This document shows, one piece after another, positions 39,871-52,109 of a stretch of DNA of 64,000 bases. Position 1 is the stretch's first letter. Each line of letters opens with the position of its first letter. The translations under genes and the position numbers were made by a program. The notes beneath the pieces are model-generated. The model saw nothing but the letters and a program-made list of their open reading frames with translations, was not told the origin of the DNA and did not search any database. The stretch is taken from positions 806,001 through 870,000 of the forward strand of contig NZ_CP132336.1 of assembly GCF_030758315.1 (NCBI RefSeq), in the 5' to 3' direction. The DNA comes from Pararhizobium sp. IMCC3301 (GTDB taxonomy: Bacteria > Pseudomonadota > Alphaproteobacteria > Rhizobiales > GCA-2746425).

Positions 39871-39933
39871 AAAAGCGCTTTAAAAAAAAGCGCTTTCAAC
39901 AGGTCAAATCCGGGCCGCCAGGCGGCCCGGATT
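39871..39933 (-). terminator. Tandem hairpins between rplL and rpoB (attenuator)
   Basis: Reading on the minus strand, the rplL stop is followed by a perfect 12-bp stem (39907-39918 with 39922-39933, AATCCGGGCCGC and its complement, 3-base loop) and then by a second hairpin made of two AAAGCGCTTT blocks around eight T residues (39871-39896). Such a pair between rplL and rpoB fits the partial termination or RNase processing known at this junction in other bacteria; the exact effect here is inferred. Confidence 0.6.
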
Positions 39934-50501: not shown

Positions 50502-51548
50502 TTACTGCTGGGGAGGCCCAGGCATGGCGGCCCGAAGATCCTCGACACTGATGCCAAGGCTTTCTGCGGCAGCCTCAAAATTGGGTGGCATTGACGTGCC
50601 AAGCGCATCAATCAATTCGTTTTGACTCACTCCCAGTTCTTCTGCGAGCGCTGCAAAATCCAGCCCACCGCCACCGGGGCCACCTTGGGATGAAACAATC
50701 TCGACCTCACCATGGTAACAATCAATCATATAGGGCGCTTCATCTGCTGTCAGATGGTAGTGATAAATCCCATCTGGAAACTCCGGCGTGACGTCGACAT
50801 GACCGCTGCATTCGTCCAGAACATCATCTGTAACGATCGCTCCGGCCTGACCTTTGTTGCCGTAGACCGGAAAGCCGTCTTCAAGCACACCAATCATGAT
50901 CGAATGTTCGCCTGATTGATCCAGGCTGTCGCTGATGCAGACCGGAATACCGTGGTAGTGGTAATTGGTTCCGTTGACCAAAGTATGCCCGTTGCATTCG
51001 TCCACGAACGGCACGTGATCGTGGATGACATTGTCATCCATGGCCACAACAGAACGTTCGGGATTTTCATAATCGTTGAAAATCTGCGCGCCACTAAGGG
51101 CGACACCGATGCGGCCCAGTGATGTGTCCGTCACCTCGTCGACATAAATTGGCAGTGTGGTGATGGTGGTGTCGAGCGGAATTTCGGTAAAGTAATCGGC
51201 CGAATTGACGACCGTAAATGCATCCGCCGATTTGTCCTGAAACGGCTGCTCATTCGGATTTTTGGGGATCAGATACTGCTCTGCGAACCCGTGGCTTGGG
51301 ATACCGTTCGATTCAAAGCGAAACGTGTTCGCCGCCTCGTCGACAGTAATTGTAACATTGTCGCTCCAGTTTGCGGCCGCAACAGCCGATCCCGTGTCAA
51401 CCAGACCCGTAGTTGATCCATCGGCTTCTTGCGCGTTCGCAGACAGCTACGTCAGAACTGACGTAGCTGTCAGTGCAAGGACAGCAACCATTACCAAAGC
51501 TGCTGCCATTCTATATATTGGCGTTCTATCTAAACGTCTGTGTTTCAT
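50502..51548 (-). pseudogene. YHYH-domain secreted protein gene with an amber codon in the signal peptide
   Basis: The full frame would code for 348 residues: a signal peptide (MAAALVMVAVLALTATSVLT, then LSANAQEA with cleavage after ANA) and a mature part with the YHYH domain. Its motifs are NGTNYHYHGIP, ECSGHVDVTPEFPDGIYHYHLT and a third stretch with APYMIDCYHG; two repeated helical segments follow near the C-terminus. Codon 34 is TAG (51447-51449), inside the signal peptide. Translation from a later GTG (51134) would give a 210-residue protein without a secretion signal. Unless the stop is read through or is an error, the gene is broken. It lies 6 bp downstream of marR and is probably co-transcribed with it. 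YHYH proteins are of unknown function; metal binding by the histidines is plausible. Confidence 0.75.
51442..51471. repeat. Perfect 30-bp palindrome carrying the amber codon
   Basis: Two exact 14-base arms (GACAGCTACGTCAG and its complement) around a 2-base centre. It falls in the signal-peptide coding part of the YHYH gene, and the TAG codon is formed by its right arm (left arm on the plus strand). A perfect palindrome of this length in coding DNA is what a quasi-palindrome template-switch mutation leaves behind. Confidence 0.85.
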
Positions 51549-51554
51549 GATGCT

Positions 51555-52082
51555 TTACCTCTCGGGCAAGTTATTAAATTTACGGTTTTCGTCATTACGG
51601 TTTTCGTCATCAATGTGTTCGTGTGAGATGACTGATTCAGATGCGCGGCGACCAGGCGCATGACCGCCCAAACCATCGCGCAGGTCGCGAGTCAAGCTCC
51701 CGAGGTCAGCGGCTTTTTCAGCGCCGATCTGCTCGGCGATCATCGCATCGATCTCGCGCCAGGCTGTGTGGATCTCCGACAACAGGCCGCGCCCGCGATC
51801 AGTCAGGCGCAAAAGATTGCTGCGTGCCTCGGACGGATCGATCTCGCGCGTGATGAAACCAGCCTCTATCAGCCGGGTCGTCATCGTGCTCATGCTGGCC
51901 GGAGTTACATCGAATGCGCGGGCAAGGCTGACTTGCGAAGCAGGTTCCATGCGGGCAAGTGCGTCGAGCACGCGTGCCTGCCGTGGTCGCAACTCGATCC
52001 GGGTGAGACGCCGACGCAAATGTTCTTCCACGAGATCGGCGGAGTGCAGAAGGAAATGCAGCAAGGAGGCATCAGTTTTCAT
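51555..52082 (-). CDS. MarR-family transcriptional regulator
   Basis: A 175-residue winged-helix regulator. The helix-turn-helix lies at about 50-75 (SQVSLARAFDVTPASMSTMTTRLIEAG) followed by the wing with DPSEARSNLLRLTDRG, where the Asp-x-Arg of the wing is conserved in form. The last 20 residues (DDENRNDENRKF) are polar and come from a 15-bp tandem duplication. A 26-bp palindrome begins one base upstream of the start codon, so autorepression is likely. The YHYH gene follows 6 bp downstream. Confidence 0.88.
   Translation of the reverse strand: MKTDASLLHFLLHSADLVEEHLRRRLTRIELRPRQARVLDALARMEPASQVSLARAFDVTPASMSTMTTRLIEAGFITREIDPSEARSNLLRLTDRGRGLLSEIHTAWREIDAMIAEQIGAEKAADLGSLTRDLRDGLGGHAPGRRASESVISHEHIDDENRNDENRKFNNLPER
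51580..51609. repeat. 15-bp perfect tandem duplication in the marR 3' end
   Basis: TTACGGTTTTCGTCA is present twice head to tail. It lies in frame in the last codons of marR and duplicates five residues (DENRN), so it changes the C-terminal tail but not the fold. Confidence 0.85.
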
Positions 52083-52083
52083 G

Positions 52084-52109
52084 CTAACAGTTAGTATACT
52101 AATTATTAG
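52084..52109 (-). promoter_or_regulatory. Palindromic operator at the marR start
   Basis: CTAA-N3-TTAGTATACTAA-N3-TTAG, symmetric over 26 bp with a perfect 12-bp centre. It begins one base before the marR start codon. The size and position fit a MarR dimer site that would block transcription of marR and the YHYH gene; it also lies near the promoter of the divergent sialidase-tlpA unit. Confidence 0.65.

Follow-up and report, generated by a model that had tools for sequence, protein, structure and literature searches.

In the genome of Pararhizobium sp. IMCC3301, a gene for a secreted YHYH-domain protein is interrupted by a TAG at codon 34, inside the signal peptide, and this stop codon is part of an exact 30-bp palindrome. 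The nonsense allele is likely to be real and recent, and we favour, with more reserve, a quasi-palindrome template switch as its cause. The window referred to below is the whole stretch of 64,000 nucleotides that was analysed (positions 806,001 to 870,000 of contig NZ_CP132336.1), and coordinates are positions within it unless a related locus is named.

The interrupted gene and its MarR neighbour

The minus-strand frame from 51548 to 50502 consists of 33 signal-peptide codons, TAG as codon 34, and then 314 open codons with a terminal stop, and its translation reads M...SVLT*LSANAQ.... Both the stop within the signal peptide and the 314 open codons after it had been reported in the first-pass annotation, a reading of the letters alone, and both are found in the translation. 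The sequence GAGAGG ends 9 nt upstream of the ATG at 51548. The features of the locus are as follows.

50502..51446, minus strand: mature YHYH part (PF14240), 314 codons plus stop, intact according to the translation, the Pfam match and the intact motifs
51442..51471, no strand: exact palindrome, with AA as its centre on the plus strand
51447..51449, minus strand: in-frame TAG, codon 34, falling within the 3' arm of the transcribed hairpin
51450..51548, minus strand: signal-peptide part, 33 codons from the ATG at 51548, aligning with the signal peptides of the related loci L016 and L017
51555..52082, minus strand: gene for a MarR-family regulator, directly upstream of the YHYH gene and on the same strand, an arrangement with a homologous counterpart in L017

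Downstream of the stop, the frame encodes a YHYH protein (PF14240, E 4e-23, 82.8 bits against a curated cut-off of 25), in which the HDH, YHYH and CYHGE stretches are all intact, and no other YHYH gene was found in the genome. For the YHYH domains of jumbo phages, a metal-dependent hydrolase has been predicted (PMC7824862). The earliest in-frame ATG, GTG or TTG past the TAG is at 51134, 104 codons on, and would give 210 residues; consequently, the interrupted frame is hidden in lists of open reading frames (ORFs).

In L017, the MarR and YHYH genes are arranged as in the window, with the MarR stop overlapping the YHYH start. In L016, a MarR match (residues 48-163) lies just upstream of the YHYH gene, contains at least one internal stop and has no in-frame N-terminal part. 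In this respect L016 is the reverse of the window: the defective gene is the MarR homologue (L016:2538-2885) and the YHYH gene is intact, while in the window it is the YHYH frame that is interrupted, beside an intact MarR gene. A MarR homologue is also present about 1.3 kb upstream in L023. Altogether, a MarR match within the stretch compared was found in 4 of 26 related loci, so the tight MarR-YHYH link is seen among the nearest relatives only. Within the genus, the YHYH gene of genome G001 adjoins a MarR homologue, which is on the other strand. The MarR gene of the window also carries an exact 15-bp tandem duplication at its 3' end (51580-51609), which is another event of the replication-slippage type within 150 bp of the palindrome.

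A rare palindrome

The palindrome is composed of two arms of 14 nt (51442-51455 and 51458-51471) that are 100% complementary, pairing at 14/14 positions across a gap of 2 nt, exactly as the first-pass annotation had described it. Base composition predicts 0.0008 perfect inverted repeats with arms of at least 14 and a gap of 0-2 in 64 kb of sequence, and 0.06 in the whole genome. When the window and 31 stretches of 20 kb were taken together as a 684-kb sample, 8 perfect repeats with arms of at least 14 and a gap of no more than 8 were counted, the present palindrome among them, and only this one and one other have a gap of no more than 2. Ten first-order Markov replicas of the sample yielded no arms of at least 14.

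None of the 8 repeats falls within an ORF retained by a greedy caller, a status that for the other seven comes from the caller only, without one-by-one classification; the present palindrome is scored outside ORFs because the TAG terminates its frame. The sole arm of at least 12 within an ORF of the sample is one of 13 nt (39907-39933), next to the repeat at 39872-39896. These two consecutive perfect inverted repeats (39872-39933), with arms of 13 and 10 nt, respectively, lie in an ORF of 666 nt, which may be spurious.

The palindrome also folds strongly. As single-stranded DNA, its hairpin has a fold z of -5.0, equalled by 0 of 200 shuffles, while the 181-nt RNA around it has a fold z of -3.4, equalled by 2 of 200. 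A six-base inverted repeat, GCTGTC / GACAGC, with an 8-nt spacer overlaps the palindrome (51466-51485), and the outer part of the 5' arm of the hairpin therefore has two possible partners.

Several ordinary roles for such a structure could be set aside. An origin from a repeat family or REP-like element was ruled out, since the 4.58-Mb genome has no second copy of the whole palindrome at up to 3 mismatches; single arms have two more matches inside the window, with 2 mismatches each. A terminator or attenuator was ruled out because neither arm is followed by a run of T, and a MarR operator because, on inspection, the palindrome before the MarR gene (52084-52109) differs in sequence. The upstream 33 codons are not a leader peptide either, since relatives show a signal peptide there.

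The palindrome site in related loci

The relatives of the YHYH protein share 58-76% identity with it, and the nearest are L016 (76%, from a MAG labelled Aurantimonas) and L017 (75%, Pseudoruegeria). The signal-peptide region is open, without a stop, in 22/22 related loci, a count in which the rows of L020 and L127 are identical; L126, whose match begins past the signal peptide, and L132, the second Loktanella salsilacus copy, are excluded from it. Signal peptides were called on visual inspection, where the N-terminus was positive and a hydrophobic stretch was present. In none of the 22 loci does an exact inverted repeat with an arm longer than 7 and a gap of no more than 8 occur within 200 nt to either side. 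The same code recovers the 14-nt arm in the window, which serves as the positive control, and in the 22 loci it found one 7-bp arm, in L125; a separate scan of 15 relatives, run without a positive control, listed no arms of 7 or more. Comparison with close relatives had been proposed as a check in the first-pass annotation; in these 22 loci, neither the palindrome nor the stop is present.

The same comparison bears on a possible internal start at the GTG at 51134, from which a shortened YHYH protein of 210 residues would be translated and stay in the cytoplasm. In favour of it, the best Pfam stretch starts at this very GTG, at residue 105 of the frame after the stop. Such a start is nevertheless very improbable, as the GTG is about 300 nt from the stop and the proteins of all 22 loci begin with a signal peptide.

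An ungapped alignment with the signal peptide of the window, from the hydrophobic core to SANAQ, could be made by eye for L016 and L017 only. When the 14+2+14 register of the palindrome is laid over these two loci, 7/14 positions pair in L016 (shuffle P 0.05) and 8/14 in L017 (shuffle P 0.018). Singly, 5.5% of L016 registers reach 7 and 2.1% of L017 registers reach 8; jointly, both values are reached at 8 of 975 registers (about 0.8%), the palindrome register included, in what is a test of one site in two related sequences. The other 18 anchored loci have signal peptides out of register and show 1-6 of 14 pairs, with the score of L022 meaningless, as this locus is anchored in the mature part; L021 and L030 are without an anchor. 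The pairing in L016 and L017 would fit an older quasi-palindrome that was later perfected by a template switch.

The differences between the arms were then compared. The outer six bases of L017 are identical to the window at 6/6 positions of the 3' arm and at 5/6 of the 5' arm, while the inner eight bases of these arms show 7 and 4 differences, respectively. Had the 5' arm of a quasi-palindrome been copied into the 3' arm to make the repeat perfect, such a trace would be expected. However, it is weak evidence, and the inner 3'-arm change in the window is not special, because 6/8 of these bases are also different between L016 and L017.

Then, could ordinary substitutions have produced the same site? 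The TAG would be a point mutation, and the palindrome would either have existed before or have arisen stepwise by drift in a fast-evolving signal peptide. The region does change fast, with 12/28 arm bases differing from the window in L017 and 16/28 in L016, many codons are one change away from a stop, and the outer bases are mostly paired already in L017. Against this, the chance expectation of a perfect 14-bp stem is the very low one given above, and an exact arm longer than 7 was seen in none of the relatives examined. We therefore regard ordinary substitutions as unlikely, though worth keeping in mind.

Constraint and age of the stop

The remainder of the gene has not decayed, in keeping with the recent event suggested in the first-pass annotation. 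When 21 sequences were aligned, 88 columns were invariant in the 20 relatives, and the window departs from 1 of them; when each of the 20 relatives is left out in turn, 0-3 breaks of 74-90 invariant columns are obtained. On a tree of 20 rows, which leaves out the short L126 and in which most deep forks are unresolved, the end branch of the window has 0.18 changes per column, compared with a median of 0.26. The identity to L018 is also similar, at 73% for the window, 74% for L016 and 72% for L017. Pairwise dS (NG86) is near saturation or not computable. Of two marks of a pseudogene, a frame interrupted in comparison with intact orthologues is present, and relaxed constraint after the break was not found in these columns.

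Unconstrained mutation was simulated for comparison: at 2% per site, no more than one new break appeared in 10% of runs, and at 3% per site, in 1.8% of 600 runs. Taken with the undecayed remainder, this suggests that, unless the protein is still required and produced, the stop is younger than about 2-3% neutral change; the intact remainder by itself is also compatible with a protein that is still made.

An undecayed remainder would also be seen if a hairpin-forming site had been misread in sequencing or assembly and the real gene had no stop, and hairpins can disturb polymerases. Such an error is improbable here. The genome is a single contig with an estimated completeness of 98.19 and contamination of 0.44, and perfecting a 14-bp palindrome without a frameshift would be an odd error.

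Decoding of the TAG

If the protein is still made, the stop could be read through or bypassed, so that export continues under control. The apparent constraint on the gene and the strong RNA hairpin around the stop speak for this. However, TAG is in common use, terminating 122 of the 451 ORFs of at least 200 residues in the 684-kb sample, and none of the 39 tRNAs found by ARAGORN has a CTA anticodon, in a set that is incomplete, Ile-GAT and Ala-TGC being missing from it. The amber suppression mentioned in the first-pass annotation is disfavoured by both observations. Furthermore, most readthrough signals have their structure downstream of the stop, whereas here the 3' arm of the RNA hairpin contains the UAG itself, and a ribosome will have melted the stem by the time it decodes this codon. 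Nor does any of the 22 related loci have the stop or a comparable palindrome. Taken together, we consider readthrough or bypass quite improbable.

Proposed origin of the nonsense allele

Based on these comparisons, the following course of events may be proposed. The signal-peptide region of a MarR-linked YHYH gene would already have had an imperfect inverted repeat, with GACAGC / GCTGTC as its outer bases. During replication, the nascent strand would have taken the other arm as template, by folding back on it or by switching to it, and would have returned once this arm was copied. A single event would thereby have made the palindrome perfect and introduced the in-frame TAG. The template was probably the arm nearer the start codon. 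Translation would then end after 33 residues and, as there is no usual start codon close downstream, no exported protein would be expected from this allele.

The template switch had been put forward in the first-pass annotation, and it stands as a plausible cause, because the two nearest relatives hold a partial palindrome at the exact register and because a perfect 14-bp stem is unlikely to be assembled by independent substitutions. It falls short of proof, as the nearest relative has 76% protein identity, synonymous sites are near saturation, and none of the four other genomes of the genus that were searched has an orthologue at E 1e-60. The phase-varying hairpin also mentioned there found no support in this analysis. 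As a reversible switch of this kind, repeated template switching would alternate between a perfect palindrome (stop, no export) and an imperfect one (open, export), so that a fraction of the cells would gain or lose the MarR-linked secreted protein; we consider this very improbable.

Distribution of the YHYH gene

Most of the relatives come from genera of Rhodobacterales, an order stated in the records for Limimaricola and Loktanella. Within the order of the window, a search of 397 genomes at E 1e-60 returned its own genome as the sole match, and at class level only the window's own match was found in 385 genomes at E 1e-40. The four other genomes of the genus have no orthologue at E 1e-60, and three of them have weaker YHYH matches (best 3e-20). 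The gene is sparse in the order, and it was therefore probably acquired. For the genomes around G424 (120 genomes, E 1e-80), G424 itself is the sole match, while those around G425 gave matches in 8/394 at 1e-60 and in 8/390 at 1e-80, none nearer than L016 and L017. Viral contigs contained no closer orthologue, and 16 plasmid records matched, with a best identity of 71.8%. In addition, the YHYH frame of Amylibacter kogurei (L028:3001-3810) stops early with an unrelated C-terminus, GGGGPKFCRSCRATGHH, as if frameshifted.

Comparison with known template-switch systems

The window shares the family match with the secreted proteins of the YHYH family (PF14240) and differs from the 22 unstopped related loci by the stop in its signal peptide. 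As to the mutation, template switching in E. coli is described as making imperfect repeats perfect or more perfect, and the quasipalindrome mutations of the E. coli thyA hotspot, the lacZ QP reporters, T4 rIIB and yeast CYC1 are likewise cases of templated repeat perfection (PMC7202029; PMC6357072). Those events were seen in mutant selection, whereas the present one is seen in a genome, and its precursor is inferred from relatives at 75-76% protein identity. A similar process has been reported for Saccharomyces cerevisiae genes, where clusters of substitutions perfect short inverted repeats in coding DNA and arms were lengthened from 4 to 11 bp (UTP5) and from 5 to 16 bp; there, both the ancestral and the derived forms are in hand (PMC8604942). 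That survey dropped gene sets with premature stop codons (PMC8604942), so an outcome like that in the window could not appear in it. For RNA genes, the case has been made that new hairpin stems arise in single events by template switching (PMC8794818).

To the best of our knowledge, work on quasi-palindrome mutation in bacteria has relied mainly on reporter genes and selected mutants; no comparable case was found in the open-licence literature on quasipalindromes and template switching. The window case is a good example of a known mutation type, not a new kind of system, and it changes no known mechanism. It is also a caution for annotation, since gene callers will give a 210-residue cytoplasmic protein at this locus. 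If the template switch is true, this complete alphaproteobacterial genome would hold a natural case of a gene inactivated in one step through the correction of a quasi-palindrome.
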